48,015 nt of DNA from Candidatus Accumulibacter contiguus. GTDB lineage: Bacteria; Pseudomonadota; Gammaproteobacteria; Burkholderiales; Rhodocyclaceae. The first letter of the stretch is position 1. Each line of letters starts with the position of its first letter. The stretch spans positions 1 through 48,015 of the forward strand of contig NZ_SPMX01000005.1 in NCBI RefSeq assembly GCF_012940005.1, read 5' to 3'. A program made the translations under genes and the position numbers. Under the pieces are notes generated by a model that saw only the letters and a list, made by a program, of their open reading frames with translations, was not told the origin of the DNA and searched no databases. Shown piece by piece: positions 35,914 to 46,935 of this stretch.

Positions 35914-36191
35914 TCATCGCCTGGTGAAACTCAGGGTGACTTCACCCAGATGAAAGTCCAGCGTCGACGCGGGTGATGGTCCATACGCGGCGCGAGGTGC
36001 GGCCATCCGACCACGAGAAATGCTCGTCAAGGGTACCGACATCGACTCCATCGCGCTTCTCCCAACTGGCGTCGATGATCACGTGAAAATGCCTGATCAC
36101 TTCGCCGGAACGATTCTGAACTCCAGGGTGTTGCGCCAGCGCCAGGCCAACACGGCGGCGATGGACTTGAAGAGGTGAGGGCATTGTTCAT
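35914..36191 (-). pseudogene. DUF3833 remnant (collapsed gene, possible DUF1365 start)
   Basis: Pieces of a DUF3833 protein appear in two frames. RSGEVIRHFHVIIDASWE and GTLDEHFSWSDGRTSRRVW come first. The family C-terminus LDFHLGEVTLSFTRR then follows in a different frame, ending at the TGA at 35914. The middle third and the N-terminal lipoprotein part are missing. At the other end an ATG overlapping the stop of the FAD oxidoreductase gene (ATGA) begins MNNAL, as a DUF1365 protein might, and is lost at once. I infer that one or more deletions fused what were several genes between the oxidoreductase and the SDR. Confidence 0.65.
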
Positions 36192-37516
36192 GCGAAAACA
36201 CCCGCTCGCCGCCGTACAGGCGGCGCCGGGGATGCCGCGGCCGTGCCTTGCCAGGGCGCACGACAGGCCAGGGCATTCGCCACCTGCAGCGCCGATTTCA
36301 GACCATCTTCGTGAAAACCGTAGCCGCCCCAAGCGCCGCAAAACCACACGCCGCTGGCGCCCGAAATGGTCGGCAGCTCACTTTGGGCTGCGATTGCGGG
36401 CCCGTCAAAAATCGGATGTGCATAGTCAAATTCGGCAATCACCCTCTCGGTCCTGGGCTCGCGCTGTGGATTCAGCGAAACCATCATCGGCATCCTGAAG
36501 GGCAGCGGCTGCAGACGGTTGATCAGGTAGGAGACACTGACCGGCCGCAGGTCGAGTTCCTGTGCGCTCGACAGGTAGTTCCACGCCGACCAGAGGGTAG
36601 GATCGCGGGGCAGAAGGGCAGCGTCCGTGTGCAGCACGGCGCGATTTGGCGCGTAGCGGATGGCACCGAGCGTGCGCCGCTCGGCCGATGTGGCTTCCTC
36701 TCCGAGAATTGCCAACGCCTGGTCGCTGTGACAGGCAAGCACAACCTGATCGTAGGACTCGACGCCTTCGTCGGTGTGCAAGAGCAGGCCGAGTTCGCGG
36801 CGCTGCACGTGGCGAACCGGCGTAGCCATACGAATGTCGTCGAGTCCGGCAGCCAGCTTGCAGACATACTCCCGGCCGCCGCCCCGGACTGTTCGCCAGA
36901 GTGGTCGATCGAAAACCTGGAGCAGTCCGTGATTGCGACAAAAGCGCACAAAACTGGCCAGTGGATAGTCGAGCATCTGGCCCGCCGGACAAGACCAGAT
37001 CGCCGCCGCCATCGGCAGAAGATACCACTCGGCAAAGGGCCGCGAGTAACCGCCCGCGTCCAGGAAACAGCGCAGACTCCGGTCATACTCGGGATACTGT
37101 TCCAGGCAGGCAACGCTTTCCCGGTTGAAACGCAGGATGTCGGCAAGCATGCGCCAGAAATCACGCCGCAGCAGATTGCGTTTCTGCCCGAAGACGGTCG
37201 CCAGGCTGCTGCCGGCCCACTCCAGTTGCGGCTCTTCGAGGCTGACCGCAAAGGACATTTCCGTCTCGACGCTGGCTACCCCCAGGTGAGCAAACATGGC
37301 CGTCAGGTTTGGGTAGGTCTTGCTGTTATAGACCAGAAAACCGGTATCGACGGGATGCTCAACGCCGTCCACAGTCACATCGACGGTATTGGTGTGCCCC
37401 CCGAGATACGACCCTGCCTCGTACAGCGTCACCAGGTGCTTTTGCGACAGCAACCAGGCACTGGCCAGGCCGGAAATTCCCGATCCGACCACGGCGATAC
37501 GTTGTGCGCCAGGCAT
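36188..37516 (-). CDS. FAD/NAD(P)-binding amine-oxidase-like oxidoreductase
   Basis: A 442-residue flavoprotein: dinucleotide fold RIAVVGSGISGLASAWLLS, then SYLGGHTNTVDV, VDTGFLVYNSKTYPNL and a C-terminal FAD contact GVWFCGAWGGYGFHEDGLKSA. It belongs to the COG2907-type oxidoreductases that accompany DUF1365, CFA-like methyltransferases and DUF3833 in gene sets linked to modified or unsaturated fatty acids and light or oxidative stress. Those partners are missing or in remnants here. It lies 17 bp after folE2 on the same strand. Confidence 0.85.
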   Translation of the reverse strand: MPGAQRIAVVGSGISGLASAWLLSQKHLVTLYEAGSYLGGHTNTVDVTVDGVEHPVDTGFLVYNSKTYPNLTAMFAHLGVASVETEMSFAVSLEEPQLEWAGSSLATVFGQKRNLLRRDFWRMLADILRFNRESVACLEQYPEYDRSLRCFLDAGGYSRPFAEWYLLPMAAAIWSCPAGQMLDYPLASFVRFCRNHGLLQVFDRPLWRTVRGGGREYVCKLAAGLDDIRMATPVRHVQRRELGLLLHTDEGVESYDQVVLACHSDQALAILGEEATSAERRTLGAIRYAPNRAVLHTDAALLPRDPTLWSAWNYLSSAQELDLRPVSVSYLINRLQPLPFRMPMMVSLNPQREPRTERVIAEFDYAHPIFDGPAIAAQSELPTISGASGVWFCGAWGGYGFHEDGLKSALQVANALACRAPWQGTAAASPAPPVRRRAGVFA

Positions 37517-37533: not shown

Positions 37534-38349
37534 TCAGGCGACTTCACTGCCAGCATTTTCGCCGCTGATCTCGGCGTAGGCAGAGTGGTTGTGAATCGAC
37601 TCGAAGTTCTCGGACTTGACCGTCCAATTTGCGATCCGTGGCTCGTTCATCAGACGCAACGCGATGTCGCGAACCAGGTCCTCGACAAACTTCGGATTGT
37701 CGTAGGCTCGCTCGGTCACCCACTTCTCGTCCGGGCGTTTGAGCAACCCGAAGACCTCGCAGGAGGCCTCCTCCTCGGCAAGGCGTACCAGTTCTTCCGG
37801 CGTCATCCCTGAACGGAGGCGGACGCTGATGGTGATGTGCGATCGCTGGTTGTGGGCGCCGTATTCGCTGATTTCCTTCGAGCAGGGGCATAGACTGGTA
37901 ACCGGCGCGACCACCTCGAGCGTTAGTTCAACCGCCTGCCCTTGGCGCTTCTCCACAATCATCCGGACGTCGTAGTCGAGCAGGCTCTCGACCCCGGATA
38001 CCGGCGCTGCCTTGCTGATGAAATAGGGAAAGGCGAGTTCGATTGCACCGCTCTGCGCATCCAGGCGCAGCAGCATGTCGTCAAACATGCGCAGCAAACG
38101 ATTGACGTTCAGTGGTGCACGCCGCTGTTCGAGCACCTCGACAAAGCGGGACATGTGCGTGCCCTTCACCTCGGGCGGCAGGCCAACCGACATCGACAAC
38201 CGGGCTACCGTGTTTTGAACGGTGCCGGCAGCATCGAGCAGCGCCAGCGGGTAGCGCAGGTCCTTGACGCCAACCTTGTGAATCGCCAACTGGCGAAGGT
38301 CGGCGCGGGCCTGCATGTCGGGAAGGAAGAATCTGTCTGGGGCGTTCAT
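37534..38349 (-). CDS. folE2: GTP cyclohydrolase FolE2
   Basis: Type IB GTP cyclohydrolase, making dihydroneopterin triphosphate; it is metal-promiscuous and in some bacteria is induced under zinc limitation. The 271-residue protein shows GVKDLRYPLALLD, GTHMSRFVEVLEQR, the metal-binding TSLCPCSKEISEYGAHNQRS and ESIHNHSAYAEI. Tetrahydrofolate or pterin made here could serve photolyases or other pterin enzymes, but none is in the window. It is followed by the FAD oxidoreductase gene. Confidence 0.93.
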   Translation of the reverse strand: MNAPDRFFLPDMQARADLRQLAIHKVGVKDLRYPLALLDAAGTVQNTVARLSMSVGLPPEVKGTHMSRFVEVLEQRRAPLNVNRLLRMFDDMLLRLDAQSGAIELAFPYFISKAAPVSGVESLLDYDVRMIVEKRQGQAVELTLEVVAPVTSLCPCSKEISEYGAHNQRSHITISVRLRSGMTPEELVRLAEEEASCEVFGLLKRPDEKWVTERAYDNPKFVEDLVRDIALRLMNEPRIANWTVKSENFESIHNHSAYAEISGENAGSEVA

Positions 38350-38398: not shown

Positions 38399-38741
38399 TC
38401 ACGGTTTGCCGAGAAACTCTTCGATCCTTGCGAGCAAAGCCCTGTCCTCGGGCTTGACGCGACTACCGAAGCTCAACACCTGCTGGCCGCTGCGATCGAT
38501 CAGGTACTTGTGAAAATTCCATTGCGGTTCCGTACCGGTCACTTTGGCGAGTTGCGCGTAGAGCGGGTTGGCGTGCTTGCCGGTTACCGTTGTCTTGGCG
38601 AACATCGGAATTCGGTATCACCGGGCAGGCATCGGCTGCGATAGCAGGCGGTGCGGCCACTAGGCTGACCGCCAGGAACAGAGCAGACAGCAGGAGGGCA
38701 CCAGTTGCTGGACCTACGTTGTGGCGCACGGTGGTGTTCAC
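38399..38741 (-). pseudogene. glutathione peroxidase remnant with internal deletion
   Basis: An N-terminal signal peptide (LLLSALFLAVSLVAAPPAIA, then ADACPVI) reads from a GTG at 38741. It is followed, in another frame, by the C-terminal third of a glutathione peroxidase: PMFAKTTVTGKHANPLYAQL, EPQWNFHKYLIDRSGQQV, FGSRVKPED. Roughly 80-90 residues are missing, including the catalytic Cys/Sec loop and the Gln of the active site, so it cannot be functional as read. Its promoter and twin operators are intact, see 38743-38832. Confidence 0.85.
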
Positions 38742-38742
38742 G

Positions 38743-38759
38743 TTTTGTCCTGGACAAAA
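38743..38759. promoter_or_regulatory. operator A: perfect dyad TTTTGTCC-T-GGACAAAA
   Basis: A perfect 8+1+8 inverted repeat, ending 2 bp from the GTG start of the peroxidase remnant. It lies about 15 bp downstream of the -10 hexamer, where a bound protein would block initiation or elongation. Its centre (38751) is 73 bp from that of operator B. Confidence 0.8.
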
Positions 38760-38774
38760 ATATAAATTACTGCC

Positions 38775-38803
38775 AATATATAAATACCTACCCATATTGT
38801 CAA
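38775..38803 (-). promoter_or_regulatory. sigma-70 promoter of the peroxidase remnant
   Basis: Reading the minus strand: -35 TTGACA (38803-38798), a 17-bp spacer, and -10 TATATT (38780-38775). This is a near-consensus housekeeping promoter in an AT-rich island within GC-rich DNA. It is framed by operators B (upstream) and A (downstream). Confidence 0.75.
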
Positions 38804-38815
38804 CAATTTTCTAAA

Positions 38816-38832
38816 ATTTGTCCTGGACAACA
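38816..38832. promoter_or_regulatory. operator B: TTTGTCC-T-GGACAAC
   Basis: A second copy of the dyad (TTGTCC-T-GGACAA core, 38818-38830), lying about 14 bp upstream of the -35 hexamer of the minus-strand promoter. On the plus strand an ATG directly follows it (38832), opening a 52-codon frame to 38990 of doubtful reality. Confidence 0.75.
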
Positions 38833-38856
38833 TGGGTACTCGTCCGGCCATGAATA

Positions 38857-39577
38857 TCAGTGCCGTCGACTGCGATAGCGGCCTCGGAAAAGACACCCTG
38901 CGCGTCCGGGAGTGTCGTTACGGCTTCTATCGTGTTTTGAGCCGAGGCGCGGCGGCGCCACCGGTGTCGCGGGTTCTTTTGGAAAGGTGAAGACGGCATC
39001 GGCCAGGCCAGGGCGAATCTCGCGGCAGTCCTCGCCGGGTGAGAGCGGCAGGAGCGTCGTGACGCGATCGACGCCGAGACCGCGCAACTGGTGCGGCACG
39101 CCAAAGCCGAAGCGCAAATGCCCGCTGCCGATGATGCCGACGACCAGCGGCGGCTGCCCCTGCGGCCCGGTGACCCGTTGCGCCACCAGCGCCTCGGCCA
39201 TGGCGTGCTCCCAGTTCTGCTGCGCCTCGACGAAGTACTGGAAGCCCGAGTCTGCCCGGCCGCCCTTCAGCTGCGCGTGCTGCCGATATACCGTAATCAG
39301 GAAGTCCAGGTAGGCCTCACTGGCCAGCGCCGGGCGGCCGACGCCCTGGCGTTGGTGGTCGGGGAGGGCCTCCCGGCCGCGCTCATCGATCGCCCGGGTC
39401 AGGCTGGCGTCGACATTGAGAGCGACCATCGGGATGCGGTTGATGCGCGCGAACTCGAACAGCGGCAGCCGGACGCTTGCAACCAGCCGCTCGGAGCGGC
39501 ACAGGCAGCGGGCGGTGCCGACCAGCCGAGCGCGGCCGCGAGCACAGGATCAGCCGCGAAGTACGATAGCTATTCAT
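38857..39577 (-). pseudogene. ChaN-like (heme-binding, Tiki-fold) lipoprotein remnant
   Basis: The main surviving part (FEFARINRIPMVALNVDASL, EAYLDFLITVYRQHAQ, FQYFVEAQQNWEHAMAEAL, PPLVVGIIGSGHLRFGFGVP, DAVFTFPKE) matches the C-terminal half of ChaN-type proteins. Upstream, a start (MNSYRTSRLIL) and a signal-like segment (LAAALGWSAPPAACAAPSGW) lie in other frames. The region that should hold the catalytic/heme-binding GE-H motif is missing, and the C-terminus also changes frame near PPRLG. I read this as a decayed gene. Confidence 0.7.
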
Positions 39578-39695
39578 GGCGCCGCTCCTGTCAAGTGTCG
39601 TTATGGTGGCTGGCAGGGCCGGTTGCAGTTCCCTTGTTCCTGCCAAGGAGTATGATCGGTCATCAAGACTTTTTTTGGAGGTTGCTGAATTGCCT

Positions 39696-40616
39696 ATGGC
39701 TTCCGTTGGCCTTGTCGCCGAAATCGCCGCCGGACTGTGCGCAGCGCAGGCAAACGTTTCGCCGAAGTATTTTTATGACGCCGCCGGCTCGGCGCTCTTC
39801 GAGCGGATTACGCGCCTGCCGGAGTACTACCTCACCCGTACCGAAGCCAAGATCATCGAGACCCATGGCGAAGAGATGGCACGGCAGATTGGTCCCGGCG
39901 CGACGGTGATCGAACTGGGGGCCGGCAACTGCGAAAAGGCGCGAGCGCTGTGCGCGATGATCAGGCCCAGGTGCTTCGTTGCCATCGATATCTCGGCCGA
40001 TTTCCTGCATCAGGCCGTCGATGGCCTGCGCGACGCCTTTCCTTCCCTCGATGTTCGCCCCGTCGTCGCCGATCTGCTGGGCGAGATTGTCCTGCCCGGC
40101 GATGTTCCGTCCGCCCGACGCCTGGTGTTCTACCCTGGTTCGTCGATCGGGAATTTCGACCCTGAGGTGGCACTCACCCTGCTCGGCCGCATGCGCGGTC
40201 TGCTGGGGAACGATGGGGCGCTGCTGATCGGCGTCGACCTGGTCAAGGACGAAGCGGTGCTCGAAGCGGCTTACAATGACGCCGCCGGGGTGACCGCTGC
40301 TTTCAACCTGAATGTGCTGCAGCACCTCAACCGGCTGCTGGGTGCCGATTTTGACCTCACGCAGTGGCAGCATCGCGCTTTCTTCAATCGCCAGAAGTCA
40401 CGCATCGAGATGCATCTGGAAGCTTTGCACGAAACGCGGGTAGCGTGGCCGAATGGCTTCCGGAACTTTCGCCGCGGCGAGCACATCCACACCGAGAACA
40501 GCTACAAGTACCGTATCGACGACTTCGCCGGCCTGCTCGGGCGCGCCGGCTTCAGCAACAGCCTGCGCTGGACCGATCCCGAGCAGTGGTTTGCGATCTT
40601 TCTTGCCCGGCCCTGA
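39696..40616 (+). CDS. egtD: L-histidine N(alpha)-methyltransferase (ergothioneine)
   Basis: Trimethylates histidine to hercynine, the first step of ergothioneine synthesis. The product of about 306 residues shows SPKYFYDAAGSALFERITRLPEYYLTR-type sequence at the N-terminus, the SAM-binding ATVIELGAGNCEKA, and VFYPGSSIGNFDP. The start is uncertain: GGAGG ends 8 bp before an in-frame TTG (39690), whereas the ATG used here (39696) is 14 bp away. The TTG may be the real start, adding two residues. egtB follows 24 bp downstream. Confidence 0.93.
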   Translation: MASVGLVAEIAAGLCAAQANVSPKYFYDAAGSALFERITRLPEYYLTRTEAKIIETHGEEMARQIGPGATVIELGAGNCEKARALCAMIRPRCFVAIDISADFLHQAVDGLRDAFPSLDVRPVVADLLGEIVLPGDVPSARRLVFYPGSSIGNFDPEVALTLLGRMRGLLGNDGALLIGVDLVKDEAVLEAAYNDAAGVTAAFNLNVLQHLNRLLGADFDLTQWQHRAFFNRQKSRIEMHLEALHETRVAWPNGFRNFRRGEHIHTENSYKYRIDDFAGLLGRAGFSNSLRWTDPEQWFAIFLARP

Positions 40617-40640
40617 AAGCATCTCCTGGAGCATAGCCTG

Positions 40641-41891
40641 ATGCCGCTCAACGATCTCTCGGCCCCCTACCGGCGGGTGCGTGACTGGACCCTGGAACTG
40701 TGCGCAGCGCTGTCGGTGGAGGACTGCTGCGTGCAGTCGATGCCCGACGCCAGCCCGGTCAAATGGCACCTCGCCCATACCACCTGGTTTTTTGAGACCT
40801 TCGTCCTGGAACCCTGGGAGCGTGGCTTCCAGCCCTTCAACGAAGCCTTCCGGGTGCTTTACAACTCGTATTACAACGCCGTCGGCGACAAGCATCCACG
40901 GCCCGAGCGCGGGTTGTTGACCCGCCCGGCGTTTGCTACCGTTCTCGCCTACCGGGCCGACGTCGACCGTCGCCTGCAGGGCCTGCTCGCCGAGCAGAGG
41001 GGGGGAGAAGCGTTGACGGCACTGGTCACTCTCGGCCTGCACCACGAACAACAGCACCAGGAACTGATCCTGACCGACCTCAAACACCTCTTTTCGCGCA
41101 ACCCCCTGGCGCCGGCTTACGCCGCCAGGCCACCGGCCGCAGCAGCAGCGCCGGCGCTGAACTGGCATGACTTTCCGGGCGGGGTGGTGATGATCGGCCA
41201 TCAGGGCTCCGGCTTCTGCTACGACAACGAGACACCGCGCCACCGTGTGTTCCTCGAACCCTACCGGCTGGCCTCGCGTCTGGTGACCAACGGCGAGTTC
41301 CTGCAGTTCATCGAGGCCGGCGGCTATCGGGAACCCGTCCATTGGCTCGCCGAGGGCTGGGACTGGCGGGTTGCCGAGAACCGCATTCACCCGTTGTACT
41401 GGCGGCGGCGGGAGGACTGGCAGGAATTCACCCTCGGCGGGCTGGTTCCCCTCGATCGCCAGCGACCGCTGGTGCATGTCTCCTACTACGAAGCCGATGC
41501 CTATGCCCGTTGGGCCGAGGCGCGGCTACCGACGGAGGCGGAATGGGAAAATGCGGCCGCCGGCGTCCCGATTGCCGGCCATTTCGCCGGTCGGCGGGAC
41601 TTTCATCCCGCTGTCGCAGCAGCCGGCGGCATCAGCCAGTTGTTTGGCGATGCCTGGGAATGGACCCGCTCGAGCTACGATCCCTATCCGGGTTTCCGCG
41701 CCGGGGCGGGCGCCGTGGGTGAGTACAACGGCAAGTTCATGGTCAATCAGTACGTCCTCCGGGGTGGCTCCTGCGTCACCCCCGACGACCACCTGCGGGC
41801 CAGTTACCGCAACTTCTTTCCGGCGACGGCGTGCTGGCAGTTCTCGGGTATCCGCCTGGCCCGTGACGCCGAACCTGGCGGCAACGGATGA
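40641..41891 (+). CDS. egtB: hercynine oxygenase / sulfoxide synthase (ergothioneine)
   Basis: A non-heme iron enzyme that couples hercynine to cysteine or gamma-glutamylcysteine with O2. The 416-residue protein has an N-terminal DinB-like domain with likely iron ligands in KWHLAHTTWF (His43/His46) and LGLHHEQQHQEL (His135, His139). A C-terminal FGE-sulfatase-like domain follows (GGVVMIGHQGSGFCYDNETP; RLPTEAEWENAA; WEWTRSSYDPYPGF; VLRGGSC). No egtA, egtC or egtE is in the window. gshA upstream could supply gamma-glutamylcysteine. Confidence 0.93.
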   Translation: MPLNDLSAPYRRVRDWTLELCAALSVEDCCVQSMPDASPVKWHLAHTTWFFETFVLEPWERGFQPFNEAFRVLYNSYYNAVGDKHPRPERGLLTRPAFATVLAYRADVDRRLQGLLAEQRGGEALTALVTLGLHHEQQHQELILTDLKHLFSRNPLAPAYAARPPAAAAAPALNWHDFPGGVVMIGHQGSGFCYDNETPRHRVFLEPYRLASRLVTNGEFLQFIEAGGYREPVHWLAEGWDWRVAENRIHPLYWRRREDWQEFTLGGLVPLDRQRPLVHVSYYEADAYARWAEARLPTEAEWENAAAGVPIAGHFAGRRDFHPAVAAAGGISQLFGDAWEWTRSSYDPYPGFRAGAGAVGEYNGKFMVNQYVLRGGSCVTPDDHLRASYRNFFPATACWQFSGIRLARDAEPGGNG

Positions 41892-42015
41892 CCCTGCGTG
41901 TGCGGTTTCTTCGCAGTGGGGAGTCGTCTCCTGCATTCGTCGAATGCACAGCGGCCGAAGAGGGAACGCAGGCGGTCATTGTCGTAATCGCATCAACTTG
42001 GGTTCAGGCGAGGCG

Positions 42016-42044
42016 CGGACAGCCTGACCAGAACGGCCTATAAT
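42016..42044 (+). promoter_or_regulatory. sigma-70 promoter candidate upstream of the SRPBCC-LOV genes
   Basis: CGGACA (42016-42021), a 17-bp spacer and a perfect TATAAT (42039-42044), about 97 bp before the SRPBCC start, in a 249-bp gap after egtB. The -10 is strong and the -35 shares four of six bases with the consensus. No copy of the TTTTGTCC dyad was seen here. Confidence 0.5.
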
Positions 42045-42140
42045 CTCGCAATTGCTGGCGGGAACCGGGCAGACAGCACTGAGCCCAGCATTTTCGAATC
42101 GTTGCAGGCAGCACTACGCAACGATGATGAAGGATAGGCA

Positions 42141-42593
42141 ATGATCACCGCTAAAGCGGACGTTCTGGTGTTTGAAGAGATCGACCGGGTCTACCAGTTC
42201 GTCGCCCCTGATTTCGTGACCAATTATCCCCGCTGGTCACCGGAAGTGGTGAGTCTCGAACCGCTGTCGGTCGGCCCGGTGCAGGTGGGTTTCCAGGCTC
42301 GGCAGACACGTGTCGATCACGGCCACAAGTCGGAATCGGTTTTTGAGGTGGCCGAACTCGAACCGCTGAAGCGGGTCTGCTTCAAGGGTGTTTCGGATCC
42401 GTTTCGCTCGATCTACGAATTCGATGACCGCAGTTCGTCCACGTTGCTGACCTTCACCTTCGAAGTGGAAGCGCTGGCGCCGCACATCCGCCCATTCGAA
42501 AAACTGGTGCGCATCGCGGTACAGGATGGTGCCAGGCGCTTGGTGAAAAAGCTCAAGCTGCTCATCGAAAAGGAAATGCTGAACAACGTCTAG
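42141..42593 (+). CDS. SRPBCC (START/polyketide cyclase-like) protein
   Basis: A 150-residue protein with a single SRPBCC-type helix-grip domain (VFEEIDRVYQFVAPDFVTNY; VGFQARQTRVD; FDDRSSSTLLTFTFEVE; LVRIAVQDGARRLVKKLKLL). Such domains bind hydrophobic ligands; the ligand here is unknown. It is followed by the LOV gene after about 50 bp and is probably cotranscribed with it, raising the possibility of a light-linked role. Assignment is at fold level only. Confidence 0.7.
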   Translation: MITAKADVLVFEEIDRVYQFVAPDFVTNYPRWSPEVVSLEPLSVGPVQVGFQARQTRVDHGHKSESVFEVAELEPLKRVCFKGVSDPFRSIYEFDDRSSSTLLTFTFEVEALAPHIRPFEKLVRIAVQDGARRLVKKLKLLIEKEMLNNV

Positions 42594-42645
42594 CAGTGCA
42601 GGAGCAATCGCATTGCTGAGAGATTTGAGGTCCACGGAGGCTCTG

Positions 42646-43077
42646 ATGTTCACGACGGCAAAAGACGATGGTTTGATTCCCTACGTTCTCACCCAGATTC
42701 TCGATGCCTGCGTCAATGGCATCACCCTGTCCGACCCGGATCTACCCGACAATCCCATTGTCTATGCCAACCAGGTCTTCGAGCAGATATCCGGCTACTC
42801 GCAAGCAGAGATCATCGGTCGCAACTGTCGCTTCCTGCAGGGAGAAGAACGCGAACAGCCGGCATTGGCAACCATCCGCGCGGCGCTGGCAAAAAAGGAG
42901 GGGTGCGTGGTGACCTTGCGCAACTATCGCAAGAACGGCGAGCTGTTCTTCAATCGACTGTCGATCCGCCCGCTGGTGGATCGCGAGGGCAAGGTTATTT
43001 ACTACCTCGGCGTACAGTATGACATCACCGATCAACTCAGGGCCAGCGGCGAAGGCGACCCGATCAGCTTCGCGTAG
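42646..43077 (+). CDS. short LOV-domain blue-light photoreceptor
   Basis: A 143-residue protein that is almost only a LOV domain (about 28-130): ITLSDPDLPDNPIVYANQVF, the flavin-binding signature GRNCRFLQG with adduct-forming Cys61, then LRNYRKNGELFFNRLSI and YYLGVQYDIT with the usual Asn and Gln flavin contacts. There is no kinase, GGDEF or HTH, so it is a short LOV protein comparable in size to those of Pseudomonas putida; output would be by protein interaction. The start is ATG 42646 with GGAGG 5 bp upstream; the TTG at 42613 is rejected. Confidence 0.92.
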   Translation: MFTTAKDDGLIPYVLTQILDACVNGITLSDPDLPDNPIVYANQVFEQISGYSQAEIIGRNCRFLQGEEREQPALATIRAALAKKEGCVVTLRNYRKNGELFFNRLSIRPLVDREGKVIYYLGVQYDITDQLRASGEGDPISFA

Positions 43078-43143
43078 TCAGCCTGAGCGGAACTTCAGCC
43101 GCCTCTGTGAGTCTTCATTGCAACCCTCAACGGGAGCCACACC

Positions 43144-43434
43144 ATGCCAAGAGCCATTTGGAAAAACGCCGTCATTGCCGAATCCACGACCTTCGAGACT
43201 GTCGAGAACAATGTCTACTTTCCGCCTGGCACGGTAAAGACCGAGTATCTCCGCGCCAGCGACACCCACACTACCTGCCCGTGGAAGGGCGTCGCCAGCT
43301 ATTACGACGTAATCGTCGACGGCCAGGTGAACAAGGACGCGGCCTGGTATTACGCCAACCCCAAAGACGCCGCGAAGAACATCAAGGACCACATTGCTTT
43401 CTGGAAAGGAGTCACGGTCGAGGCGGGTCGGTGA
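43144..43434 (+). CDS. DUF427 family protein
   Basis: A 96-residue protein of the DUF427 type: KAIWKNAVIAES-like N-terminus (MPRAIWKNAVIAE), VYFPPGTVKTEYL, THTTCPWKGVASYYDV and AAWYYANPKDAAKNIKDHIAF. Its biochemical role is unknown. It frequently occurs with light- or oxidative-stress genes and here follows the LOV gene by 66 bp. Confidence 0.85.
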   Translation: MPRAIWKNAVIAESTTFETVENNVYFPPGTVKTEYLRASDTHTTCPWKGVASYYDVIVDGQVNKDAAWYYANPKDAAKNIKDHIAFWKGVTVEAGR

Positions 43435-43499
43435 GCAGCAGGAGCGTGCAGCTACCAACGCACGAAGTGCGAGGCAGGTGCGTCGAATCGAGGCCCTAT

Positions 43500-44201
43500 T
43501 CATGAACCTCCCCTTGTTTCGATCGGGATGGTGCCAAGCCACTTCGGCGCGCCGCTGCCGTTGATCTGAAAAATGCTGCCGCCACCGGCAGGAGGCGTTG
43601 CCTCGGTGAAGGCGTTCACCACGACCTGATGAGTGACCAGGATCACCGGCTGACCATCGATCGGCAGCCTGGCAAGAAACGCCCGCAAGCCGTCCAGAAT
43701 CCGTTGCCGATCGTCCTGCCGTTCGAAAAAGGAATTCAGCGCGGGCAAGGGCTCTACTGGCCCAAGGTCCAGCAGGCGGGCCGTTTCGAGCGCGCGGCAC
43801 CACTGGCTCGAAAAGACTCTCGCATGGGTCAGGCCGGCCGCACGCAGACGGGCCCCCAACTGTCGTGCCTGAGCCCGGCCACTGGCATCAAGATTGCGCT
43901 GGGTGGAACAATCGCCGATGACGAAATTCGGCGGGTCGCCGACCCCCGGCGCGTGGGCATGGCGGAGCATCAGCAAGCGGCCTGGCTTGGCCAGTTCGCC
44001 CAGCGGCACCGGCAGGCCGTCGGCCCGCGCCGGCAAGGAGCTTGCCATGGCCGCAAGGGAAAGGATGAGCAGCGAGAACAGCGTCCTCTTTCCTTCAGCC
44101 AACCAGTCCAGTCGCGAATCGATGGCTCTTGACCCGAGCCATCTGGCGATCGTCGGGCAGGTGACCTCGACGTCATCTGATCCTACAGTAGCCCGGAACA
44201 T
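43500..44201 (-). CDS. secreted histidine phosphatase family protein
   Basis: A phosphoglycerate-mutase-like histidine phosphatase: the RH(G/A) motif in LLMLRHAHAPG, RALETARLL and the second histidine in VILVTHQVVVNAF. A hydrophobic signal (FSLLILSLAAMASSLPARA) precedes the domain, so it is probably exported. The start is unclear: ATG 44201 leaves a long N-region before the signal, and a later non-ATG start nearer LAEGKRTLFSLL is possible. Substrate is unknown. Confidence 0.75.
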   Translation of the reverse strand: MFRATVGSDDVEVTCPTIARWLGSRAIDSRLDWLAEGKRTLFSLLILSLAAMASSLPARADGLPVPLGELAKPGRLLMLRHAHAPGVGDPPNFVIGDCSTQRNLDASGRAQARQLGARLRAAGLTHARVFSSQWCRALETARLLDLGPVEPLPALNSFFERQDDRQRILDGLRAFLARLPIDGQPVILVTHQVVVNAFTEATPPAGGGSIFQINGSGAPKWLGTIPIETRGGS

Positions 44202-44230
44202 TGGCGAACAGTCCTTGGGCACGAAGACGG

Positions 44231-44575
44231 CTAACGCCGATCGGGAGAATCCGGGGTTTCCGAATCCTCGAGGGGATACGCGTCCGCCACATAAGCGGGC
44301 CCTTTCATAACCATGACGATGAGGGAAGCGATGGCCACTGTAAACACGGCCGTCCAGTGCAGGACCACGATACTGATCGCCAGAATGTCGACCGTCTGGA
44401 GGCGAGTCGCGGCCTGCACGGCATCCCCTTCCCCAGAAAAGATCCTGACGGCAAGCGACGGCAGTGCCAGAAGCAGCGTGCCGAAAACGAGCATGCGGGG
44501 TAACAGGCGCAGTACGTCGCGCTCACGCCCAGCTGGCGCCTGCACGAATCCCGGAAGTCTGTTGAAGGCGTTCAT
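44231..44575 (-). CDS. small two-helix membrane protein, unknown function
   Basis: A 114-residue protein with two hydrophobic segments (MLVFGTLLLALPSLAVRIF and ILAISIVVLHWTAVFTVAIA) and an acidic C-terminus (LEDSETPDSPDRR). GGAG lies 5 bp before the ATG at 44575. No domain is recognised. It is upstream of the histidine phosphatase gene on the same strand. Confidence 0.6.
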   Translation of the reverse strand: MNAFNRLPGFVQAPAGRERDVLRLLPRMLVFGTLLLALPSLAVRIFSGEGDAVQAATRLQTVDILAISIVVLHWTAVFTVAIASLIVMVMKGPAYVADAYPLEDSETPDSPDRR

Positions 44576-44697
44576 CGTTGCTCCTTTATTCGTTACCGTG
44601 AAAGTCGCGCCAGGAAGAGAAACGGCAGCAGTCCTCCGCAACCGAGCCAGGCAACGCTGTGTGGCATGGGATCAGGCAGCGAGTACGTTATGCCGCT

Positions 44698-45438
44698 TTA
44701 CCTGACCAGGGGCCGAATCGTCGAAAAGCCGGCGTCCATCGACCACACCTGGCCGGTCACCCGCGCAGCCTTGTCCGAGAGCAGCCAGATCATCAGTTCC
44801 GCCAGTTCGTCTGGGGAGCCAATGCCCGGCAGCGGGTACTGGCGAGCCGCGGCGTCGCGGCCCATCGCGCTGCCGAGGATGGCCGTCGCGGCCGGCGTGT
44901 CCATGATGCCGGGCGCGACGGCGTTGATCCGGATGTTATTTCCCGCATAGGTCGCCGCCGCGCTGCGTACCAGTCCTTCGACACCGGCTTTCGCCGCTGC
45001 TACCGCCTCGTGATTGGGAGTGCCGATGCGCGCAGCAGCCGACGAAACCAGCACCGCCGATCCCGCGCACTTGGCGTCGCGCAAAGCGCCGACGAAAGCC
45101 GCCAGCGTATGGAAGGCGCTGATCAGATTGGCGTTGAGGCAGGCCGCAAAGTCGACCTCGGACATCCGATGCAGTGCGCCAAGGCGAATATTCCCGACGC
45201 AGTGCGCGAATGCTGTGGGCAGCATCTGGTGCGCTTGAGCCACCGCGAAAATGTGGCGCGATCCGGCTACGCTGGAGCAGTCAGCAACCACCTGTAGGTG
45301 GCTGTCGCCGTAGATGCGAGCCAAGCGCTCGCCCTCCCGGCTGGTCACGATCACCCTCCAGCCTGCCTCTGCCAGCCTGGCCACCACCGCTTGACCGAGC
45401 CCGCCTGCCGCTCCAGTGACAAGAGCTATTCTTTCCAT
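44698..45438 (-). CDS. SDR family protein lacking the catalytic tyrosine
   Basis: A 246-residue Rossmann protein with IALVTGAAGGLGQAVVARL, AHCVGNIRLG, a Ser in VLVSSAAARIG and INAVAPGIMDTPA. At the spacing expected for Tyr-x3-Lys the sequence reads VAAAK, so the tyrosine is replaced by valine while Ser and Lys are kept. It is either a catalytically unusual or a non-enzymatic SDR. It has a good ribosome binding site (GGAGAAGATATGTC-ATG). It is divergent from the TIGR02450 gene across an intergenic region holding operators C and D. Confidence 0.8.
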   Translation of the reverse strand: MERIALVTGAAGGLGQAVVARLAEAGWRVIVTSREGERLARIYGDSHLQVVADCSSVAGSRHIFAVAQAHQMLPTAFAHCVGNIRLGALHRMSEVDFAACLNANLISAFHTLAAFVGALRDAKCAGSAVLVSSAAARIGTPNHEAVAAAKAGVEGLVRSAAATYAGNNIRINAVAPGIMDTPAATAILGSAMGRDAAARQYPLPGIGSPDELAELMIWLLSDKAARVTGQVWSMDAGFSTIRPLVR

Positions 45439-45525
45439 GACATATCTTCTCCAGTTTCACCTGCTGTCCAGCAAGGGACTTCTTGTCCGTCACAGAAAGC
45501 AGCAGTTTGATCGATCGGAAGGCAC

Positions 45526-45542
45526 TTTTGCGCTGGACAAAA
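45526..45542. promoter_or_regulatory. operator C: half-degenerate dyad TTTTGCGC-T-GGACAAAA
   Basis: The right half GGACAAAA is identical to that of operator A; the left half has two mismatches. Its centre (45534) is 75 bp from operator D. It lies 88 bp upstream of the divergent SDR gene start. Confidence 0.6.
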
Positions 45543-45600
45543 AAAGCAAAATGCACGTCAGATACACCTAATTTCGTGCTAGCATAACAAAACAACTGAA

Positions 45601-45617
45601 TTTTGTCTAGGACAAAT
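45601..45617. promoter_or_regulatory. operator D: TTTTGTCT-A-GGACAAAT
   Basis: A near-perfect copy of the dyad, directly abutting the ATG (45618) of the TIGR02450 gene, as operator A abuts the peroxidase start. A weak promoter (GTCAGA, 17 bp, TAGCAT at 45580-45585) sits between C and D at positions equivalent to those of the peroxidase promoter. Confidence 0.75.
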
Positions 45618-45905
45618 ATGAAGAAAACCGAAAAAGGCTCTGCTACACCCCGAATTGGCGTCCAGGTTTTCGGTTCGCAAAATGCTCGCCGCCTGAACCC
45701 GAAGAAGCTGCTGCTCAGCAAGTGGACGGCGGTTACCCCGCATGACCAGGAGAAGCACTTCATCGTCACCCGAGTGATTCAACCGGAGCCCCCGGCCACT
45801 CGAATCGAGAGCATCGAACTGGAAGCCGTGTACTCTCGCCGAGTATTTTCGCTGTTCTGGCACAAGCTCACTGATCGCCAGCAGTGGCTGCAAGGCTGGC
45901 AATGA
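45618..45905 (+). CDS. TIGR02450-type small Trp-rich protein
   Basis: A 95-residue protein with the family core LNPKKLLLSKWTAVTP, EKHFIVTRV, YSRRVFSLFWHKLTDRQQWLQGW. The family is of unknown function and is often found beside photolyase, cryptochrome and other light-stress genes. The start is ATG 45618; an in-frame TTG inside the operator at 45603 is rejected. There is no Shine-Dalgarno sequence because the operator occupies its place, so the transcript may be leaderless or nearly so. Confidence 0.8.
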   Translation: MKKTEKGSATPRIGVQVFGSQNARRLNPKKLLLSKWTAVTPHDQEKHFIVTRVIQPEPPATRIESIELEAVYSRRVFSLFWHKLTDRQQWLQGWQ

Positions 45906-45962
45906 CTTGTGCCAGGAAGAATCTGCGAACAGGCTCGCCGAATCGTGGTTGACAAGAAAACC

Positions 45963-46935
45963 ATGAATTCAATTCCCCATCTGGCGCTGATCGGTGCCGG
46001 CATCGCCGGCCTGTCCTGCGCCACGGCACTGCAACAGGCTGGCCTCGAAGTCAGCCTGTTCGACAAGAGTCGCGGCGCGGGCGGACGGATGAGCACGCGT
46101 CGAGGCGACGACTGGCAATGCGACCACGGTGCCCAGTATTTTCCGTGCCGAAGTGGCGCGCTGGCAGCGGGCCGGGGTCGCGGGTTGGTGGGATCCCAGG
46201 CTATGGCTGTTTGATGGCAATTCGCCGAAAGAACGCGAGTCTACGGTCGAGCGCTTTGTCGGCATGCCAGCCATGACGGCGCCCGCCCGCTATCTGGCCA
46301 GCACACTGACCGTGCAAACAGCAACGAAGATCCAGCAGCTCAGGCGCCGGGCGCGCGGCTGGCAGGTTTTCTCGGCTGAAAACGGCTGGCTGGAGACGAG
46401 CTTTGCGGCCGTCCTGCTGGGCGTCCCGGCGCCGCAGGCGGCACCCTTGTTGCAGCACCTGGCCCCCGAGTTGGCGGCACTGGCCGGCAGTGCCGTGATG
46501 CGCGGCTGTTGGGCGCTGATGCTGCACTTTGCCGCTCCGGTGGACCTGGCCTTCGATGCCGCCTTCGTCAATCAGGGCCCACTGCGCTGGATCGCCCGCA
46601 ACAGCGGCAAGCCGGGCCGCAGCGGCGAGGAAACCTGGCTGCTGCATGCCCGCGCAGAATGGAGCGAGGCGCATCTGGAAGAAGATCCGGAGAGCGTCGC
46701 CGCAGCGCTGCTGTACGCCTTTGGCCAACTGGGCGGTCCGGCCCCGCAAGCCTGGACTGCGCACCGCTGGCGTTACGCCGATACCGAACCAGCCCTCGTC
46801 GAAGGGTGCGCCTGGCGTCCAGAGATTGGCCTGGGGCTTTGCGGCGACTGGCTCAACGGTGGCAAAGTGGAGGGTGCCTGGCTCAGCGGCCGGACGCTGG
46901 CCGAACAGGTGGTGCGGTCGTTCGCGCGGTGCTGA
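45963..46935 (+). pseudogene. renalase-like FAD/NAD(P) oxidoreductase, broken by a small deletion
   Basis: The first frame begins PHLALIGAGIAGLSCATALQ, then DKSRGAGGRMSTRR and CDHGAQYF. At about 46139-46143 the frame changes to FRAEVARWQRAGVAGWWDP, continuing to GLGLCGDWLNGGKVEGAWLSG and the stop at 46935. Related proteins have about seven residues (of the TARDPAF kind) between YF and RAEV. The missing length is not a multiple of three, so some 20 bp appear deleted between short TTC repeats. Otherwise it is complete, at about 325 residues. A functional product would need the deletion to be an artefact. Confidence 0.75.

Follow-up and report, generated by a model that had tools for sequence, protein, structure and literature searches.

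Paired inverted dyads at near-whole-turn spacing as candidate operators of a LitR/CarH-type regulator in Candidatus Accumulibacter contiguus and its relatives

Dyads and promoters at the locus

The stretch analysed comprises 48,015 nucleotides of Candidatus Accumulibacter contiguus (NCBI RefSeq assembly GCF_012940005.1, contig NZ_SPMX01000005.1, positions 1 to 48,015 of the forward strand) and is called the window below. It contains two pairs of inverted dyads, A/B and C/D, which are likely to be operators of a repressor of the LitR/CarH type. The dyads, promoters and surrounding genes are listed in Table 1.

The window was scanned with the pattern TTTTGTCC-N-GGACAAAA, allowing up to three mismatches. 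Four sites were found, A with no mismatch and B, C and D with two mismatches each. The mean number of sites in 100 shuffles of the window was 0.10, and four were never reached. The centre-to-centre distance was 73 bp for A and B and 75 bp for C and D. Each dyad is made up of two inverted GGACA half-sites with one central base between them; one half, that for which this base reads as T, forms a full TnnACA. An earlier note made from the letters of the window (the sequence-only reading) had placed four dyads at these positions, with a matching spacing of 73–75 bp and one site per pair abutting a start codon. All of this was borne out.

The sequence-only reading had also described a near-consensus promoter framed by A/B and a weaker one framed by C/D. 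Both are present, and both run on the minus strand. In A/B, the −35 begins 21 bp from the centre of B, which is one base under two 11-bp steps. The same geometry (21 or 22 bp, by eye) was seen in two other genomes (G010 and G013), in folE2 promoters that have no regulator beside them. In C/D, the element is promoter-like, and its −35 is the minus-strand half TAGACA of dyad D. The rightward promoter seen at the regulators of relatives (see below) is not preserved in the window, where the −10 position is occupied by CAATAT for dyad A and by GTCAGA for dyad C.

Table 1. Positions of dyads, promoters and genes in the window (numbered from its first nucleotide)
Feature	Position	Strand	Remarks
FAD (flavin adenine dinucleotide)-dependent oxidoreductase gene, amine-oxidase type	36188–37516	−	Often next to folE2 and the regulator in relatives
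folE2, type I GTP cyclohydrolase	37534–38349	−	PF02649, 1.5e-88; downstream of A/B
Glutathione-peroxidase remnant	38405–38741	−	C-terminal 70 residues only; leader-like stretch at start
Dyad A, TTTTGTCCTGGACAAAA	38743–38759		1 nt from a GTG that may start the leftward peroxidase remnant
Leftward promoter in A/B	38775–38803	−	TTGACA (38803–38798), 17 bp, TATATT (38780–38775); 11/12 consensus matches
Dyad B, ATTTGTCCTGGACAACA	38816–38832		Final base is the A of the regulator-remnant ATG (38832–38834)
Regulator-gene start remnant, LitR/CarH-type, second clade	38832–38927	+	~32 residues
Short LOV (PAS) protein gene	42613–43077	+	Contains NCRFLQ; 3.8 kb from A/B
Short-chain dehydrogenase/reductase (SDR) gene	44698–45438	−	Leftward gene at C/D; domain match and synteny
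Dyad C, TTTTGCGCTGGACAAAA	45526–45542		Pattern scan
Leftward promoter-like element in C/D	45581–45609	−	Toward SDR gene; TAGACA-17-TATGCT with TG; 9/12
Dyad D, TTTTGTCTAGGACAAAT	45601–45617		Immediately 5' of the DUF2389-gene ATG (45618–45620)
DUF2389 tryptophan-rich protein gene (TIGR02450 of the sequence-only reading)	45618–45905	+	PF09493, 4.7e-18; rightward gene at C/D

The linked regulator

The genome (5.02 Mb in 167 contigs) contained seven dyad sites with up to two mismatches, compared with one for the reversed-pattern control. Four of the seven are those of the window, two lie 74 bp apart on contig C96 and one lies on contig C59, where a weak partner precedes it by 66 bp. With up to three mismatches, the numbers were 17 and 7, and the 3-mismatch sites in this genome were discarded as mostly chance.

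Immediately downstream of the pair on C96 is the gene of a MerR-type protein of 301 residues, the sole intact copy of this regulator found in the genome. The protein has the domains MerR_1 (PF13411, E 1.7e-12) and B12-binding_2, and its residues 6–276 align with CarH (E ~1e-25). The gene is divergent from a series of DUF1365, cyclopropane-synthase-type, MFS and DUF3833 genes. The second regulator match in the genome is the broken copy beside dyad B. When compared with 134 regulator sequences (see the following subsection), this remnant matched best to locus L043 of genome G021 (78% over 32 residues, E 6.5e-11). A weaker trace with one stop extends to 39020 (E 0.0018). The sequence-only reading had stated that the regulator could not be named and that none was encoded in the window. 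Neither statement held: the family is that of LitR/CarH-type MerR proteins with B12 motifs, and the window retains the decayed start of one copy.

The motifs Wx9EH and ExHxxG, said to define CarH (PMC8156234), were found in every one of the 132 unique regulators that have 270 residues or more. The fuller CarH motif ExHx2G-x41-SxV/T-x22-27-GG was likewise found in 132 of 132, using a relaxed pattern that accepted S as well as V/T, GA as well as GG, and wider gaps. A cobalamin adenosyltransferase gene, for making adenosylcobalamin (AdoCbl), is present in the genome. No match to phytoene desaturase (crtI family) over the cut-off was found in the genome.

Conservation of pairs and spacing

The regulator was found in 38 of 61 genomes and in 25 of 28 within the genus, own genome included. 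One scan of named genomes gave 80 regulator loci, including Dechloromonas, Azonexus, Zoogloea, Massilia and Ramlibacter. A total of 151 regulator loci yielded 134 unique proteins after the removal of 17 identical copies. A dyad pair was present within 200 bp upstream in 124 of the 134, while stretches of equal length inside the regulator gene had a pair in none of the 134 and dinucleotide shuffles (20 rounds) in a mean of 0.55. The spacings were 53 bp (1 locus), 62 bp (6), 63 bp (32), 64 bp (5), 73 bp (6), 74 bp (67), 75 bp (3), 76 bp (2), 77 bp (1) and 86 bp (1). For loci L168 and L193, the spacing was set by hand to that of the best-scoring pair (64 bp) and not to the 84 and 83 bp obtained via a 3-mismatch site. 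In three second-clade regulator promoters (L148, L041 and L149), three dyads stand in a row about 73 bp apart (near −8, −81 and −154).

A spacing-free search of 150 family genomes (68 genera), with 41–102 bp allowed, found 47 pairs; the reversed-pattern control found none in all 150 genomes. The spacings, read by hand from the site coordinates, were 59 bp (1 pair), 62 bp (4), 63 bp (21), 64 bp (4), 73 bp (2), 74 bp (13), 75 bp (1) and 95 bp (1), meaning that 45 of the 47 lie at 62–64 or 73–75 bp. A regulator match was found within ~1.5 kb of 41 pairs, folE2 or an FAD oxidoreductase near five more, and neither near one. Throughout the family, a regulator beside folE2 or the FAD oxidoreductase is a recurrent arrangement. 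An exact-core pair at 75 bp (L207; G191 C1:1067205–1067290) has neither the regulator nor folE2 nearby and adjoins an open reading frame that by eye resembles a PAS chemoreceptor; it is a possible extra target.

At the class level, a regulator match was found in 15 of 369 genomes, own genome included. Among the 15 class-level loci (14 other genomes), five had a pair with a spacing of 63 or 64 bp, one genus contributing two of these five, and two had a pair at 42 bp. Overall, the spacing classes correspond to about four to eight helical turns, from 42 bp in two distant genomes up to 86 bp. The sequence-only reading had given the distance as about seven turns. A spacing close to whole turns is supported; seven turns is one of several classes.

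The DUF2389 gene at C/D has 11 orthologues in the genus. Their spacings were 75 bp in our genome and 73, 74, 74, 74, 75, ~73, 65 and 65 bp in others; two (in G019 and G021) had no second site. Hence, seven of the 11 lie at 73–75 bp, one of them (~73 bp) via a 4-mismatch site. Five DUF2389 homologues outside the genus had no pair. Judged by these spacings, C/D is conserved too, less strictly than the regulator promoters.

The sequence-only reading had made itself depend on the frequency of the dyad upstream of genes and on the conservation of the spacing at orthologous promoters, and had suggested looking for a linked regulator gene. It survived both tests in the main: the dyad is enriched upstream of genes, both genome-wide and at the regulators, and the spacing is conserved at orthologous regulator promoters and, in the proportion given above, at those of C/D. 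A regulator gene was found directly downstream of the C96 pair and near most of the pairs found by pattern.

The independence of the spacing changes was assessed on a quick tree of 133 rows (one short row omitted). The turn classes need nine changes on this tree, and well-supported branches force at least three for the 73–77 bp class. In 21 path-disjoint comparisons (neighbours with different spacing, chosen greedily on this one tree), the spacings differed by 1 bp (10 comparisons), 2 bp (2), 4 bp (1), 11 bp (5), 12 bp (2) and 21 bp (1). Differences of 3 bp or of 5 to 10 bp occurred in none of the 21. This fits what is expected from helical-phase selection or from the gain and loss of whole 11-bp units.

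Anatomy of the regulator promoters

In the first 30 loci (25 distal sites), the distal dyad has a right half, TGGACA or TAGACA, that is consistent with a rightward −35, and a −10 of the form TAnnnT lies 17 bp further on. The second site had been described as lying upstream of the −35. This is not so in the regulator promoters of the relatives, where half of the distal dyad is the −35 itself.

On the minus strand, counted from the centre of the proximal dyad, TnnACA appears again at 11 bp and, in the 74-bp type, at 22 bp. The last TnnACA (TTGACA) is the leftward −35 and is followed by 17 bp and then TATCTT. Promoter logos were built from the 32 loci at exactly 63 bp and the 67 loci at exactly 74 bp; by these logos, 52 bp separate the leftward −35 from the centre of the distal dyad in both types. 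In the 73–77 bp class, TnnACA was present at 11 bp in 51 of 79 loci, at 22 bp in 62 of 79 and at both in 49. In the 62–64 bp class, it was present at 11 bp in 24 of 43. TnnACA was rare at other offsets on this strand. Both loci with a 42-bp spacing have their leftward −35 at 11 bp, followed by a −10 (TATTGT, by eye) that shares bases with the distal dyad.

Neighbouring genes

The sequence-only reading had counted a peroxidase among the target genes. The peroxidase gene beside A is a remnant: positions 38405–38614 match residues 181–250 of the intact protein of genome G010 (73%, tblastn), whose gene carries PF00255 (1.2e-33). As the regulator remnant, a second-clade match, starts at dyad B, A/B probably once served as a divergent promoter, with the folE2 operon on one side and a regulator copy, since lost, on the other. 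With the local regulator gene decayed, the C96 regulator probably serves A/B.

Genes for an EgtD-like histidine methyltransferase and an EgtB-like enzyme follow the regulator remnant (39576–41888, plus strand), which suggests ergothioneine synthesis. The NCRFLQ of the short LOV protein is presumably the flavin-cysteine signature. A DUF3833 remnant of 50 residues (35969–36118, minus strand; 66% to the C96 copy) lies between the FAD oxidoreductase and an SDR gene, and the light-gene cluster of the window is, on the evidence of this remnant, partly decayed. The FAD oxidoreductase 3' of the DUF2389 gene (45945–46614, plus strand) matches in two overlapping frames, due to a frameshift or a sequence error. 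Its paralogue on C59 has an open frame of 243 residues.

Interpretation and alternatives

We consider it likely that the dyads are operators of a B12- and light-controlled MerR repressor of the LitR/CarH type, which would govern a photoprotection regulon from sites placed near one face of the DNA. The candidate operators, their spacing classes, the half-site geometry and the linked regulator with its motifs can be read from the sequences; we infer from them that the protein binds the DNA and B12, responds to light and bridges the dyads. The repressor encoded by the intact C96 gene would act on the dyads, each pair framing a sigma70-type promoter and often a divergent, overlapping pair of promoters. 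Half-sites also serve as −35 hexamers, so RNA polymerase would be kept out where the repressor is bound. Dyads near one helix face would suit two dimers, or one tetramer touching both. In the dark, the AdoCbl-bound repressor would keep both promoters off, and light would break AdoCbl and release the repressor. The genes at the pairs may be read as a photoprotection set, comprising the regulator itself, a group of folE2, FAD oxidoreductase, DUF1365 and cyclopropane-synthase-type genes, and a group of DUF2389, SDR and FAD oxidoreductase genes. Two more general proposals of the sequence-only reading are supported: paired operators of a repressor with a small regulon, and a theme of light or oxidative stress.

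Several observations weigh against this interpretation. No pair was found within 200 bp upstream of 10 of the 134 regulators (in one of these, G036, a 62-bp pair sits before the adjoining DUF1365 operon instead), nor at eight of the 15 class-level loci. Single family pairs at 59 and 95 bp and the DUF2389 promoters at 65, 65 and 66 bp (the last being the C59 paralogue) are off the exact steps. The 11-bp series is not universal, because 15 of 79 loci of the 73–77 bp class have TnnACA at neither 11 nor 22 bp and 10 of 79 have none at all on the minus strand of the inter-dyad stretch and proximal dyad. On the opposite strand, counted from the distal dyad, there is no such series; TnnACA occurred only at 49 bp (13/79 and 6/43 in the two classes) and at 28 bp (5/43). 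In the window, the intermediate repeat of A/B is degenerate (TAGAAA), and no repeat series was seen at C/D. The match of the C96 regulator to B12-binding (PF02310) is weak and below the Pfam cut-off.

The quantised spacing could also reflect the gain and loss of whole 11-bp CarH repeats beside a fixed divergent promoter core, with no bridging of the dyads. We judge this explanation less likely than not. The constant 52 bp between the leftward −35 and the distal centre speaks for it, since the 63-bp and 74-bp types then differ by one TnnACA repeat. However, ten of the 15 loci without TnnACA at 11 or 22 bp are second-clade promoters of the genus and still keep a spacing of 73–76 bp, which speaks for a separate constraint on the spacing. 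In G010, 12 bp are extra outside the repeats, and in the 42-bp type the distal dyad overlaps the leftward −10 instead.

The window's short LOV protein raises another alternative, namely that the dyads are sites of a LOV-controlled class II LitR, as in Pseudomonas mendocina, with binding relieved by the illuminated LOV protein. The protein lies close to A/B and belongs to the LOV family, and the layout described for P. mendocina is similar, with Site 1 overlapping the −35 and Site 2 between the transcription start and the ATG (PMC9758184). A close LOV orthologue, however, was found in eight of 28 genus genomes (own genome included) against 25 of 28 for the regulator, and G026 and G010, whose regulators are 96% and 91% identical, gave no match to the LOV protein at E 1e-15. 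One of the two B12 domains is said to be missing from class II LitRs (PMC9758184), while both CarH motifs are invariant here. We regard this alternative as unlikely, and LOV as an obligatory sensor was rejected, being absent from genomes with the closest regulators. Given the limited distribution of its close orthologues, the LOV protein of the window may at best supply an additional input, in analogy to PmSB-LOV (PMC9758184).

That an unlinked dimeric repressor (e.g. of the GntR type) binds the palindrome, with the LitR-type gene merely one of its targets, is very improbable: the dyad is a generic palindrome and its binding by a LitR-type protein is a prediction, but 41 of the 47 pattern-found pairs lie near a LitR/CarH-type regulator gene and TnnACA is the published CarH half-site (PMC8156234, PMC9304148).

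The operator reading can be taken further. The CarH/LitR family is already known. The system may represent a lineage of B12-type CarH repressors with a two-dyad, whole-turn operator, in which a tetramer would clamp divergent promoters, the operator would lengthen in 11-bp steps and the spacing would be held over many genera. Its photoprotection regulon would be free of carotenoid genes and consist of pterin, modified fatty-acid and flavin-enzyme functions. This extended proposal is put forward tentatively, as one whose chances we judge to be slightly less than even. No description of a phased two-dyad operator with an 11-bp step was found in the limited open-access literature, and one may exist elsewhere; nor was this gene set found there under a CarH with B12 motifs, and an earlier description is possible.

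The spacing variants from 42 to 86 bp, most of them at orthologous promoters, provide a natural test of the bridging of separated sites by CarH-type proteins. The results suggest a B12-linked light response in Accumulibacter and its Dechloromonas and Azonexus relatives, and they supply candidate light-switchable operators.

Comparison with known systems

CarA of Myxococcus xanthus is similar in that two dimers bind cooperatively, with two inverted repeats proposed, one of them over the −35 (PMC8156234, PMC9304148). CarA differs in being without Wx9EH, in working without B12 and in a total site of ~55 bp (PMC8156234).

The class II LitR proteins PmlR2 and PplR1 of Pseudomonas likewise have a pair of sites, of which the first covers the −35 and the second precedes the ATG, and their light-induced sets include photolyase, FAD oxidoreductase, SDR, fatty-acid and pterin genes (PMC9758184). 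They differ in their consensus, T(G/A)TACA-N12-TGTA(C/T)A, in the reported absence of one B12 domain and in receiving the light signal via a short LOV protein (PMC9758184). A single B12 domain was not what we found, as the motifs of both domains are kept in all regulators; the PF02310 match is weak and under the cut-off. The scan for TGTACA covered the 350 bp upstream of the 15 class-level loci and found none.

With CarH of Thermus thermophilus, Bacillus megaterium and Cystobacter, the regulator and its sites share the MerR DNA-binding domain, both B12 motifs, TnnACA, the 11-bp period and the overlap with the −35. The CarH half-site is published as nnnnTnnACAn; it is repeated in tandem every 11 bp, and the −35 is part of the repeats (PMC8156234, PMC9304148). 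Unlike in CarH, inverted half-sites here form near-perfect dyads in phased pairs 42–86 bp apart, and the neighbouring genes identified are not carotenoid genes, while the CarH operators in the available descriptions lie at carotenoid promoters. Tandem 11-bp TnnACA repeats over the promoter are present in most, not all, of the 73–77 bp class, where they are combined with the inverted dyads. For Sorangium CarH, a divergent overlapping promoter pair has been proposed (PMC8156234, PMC9304148), as it is here.

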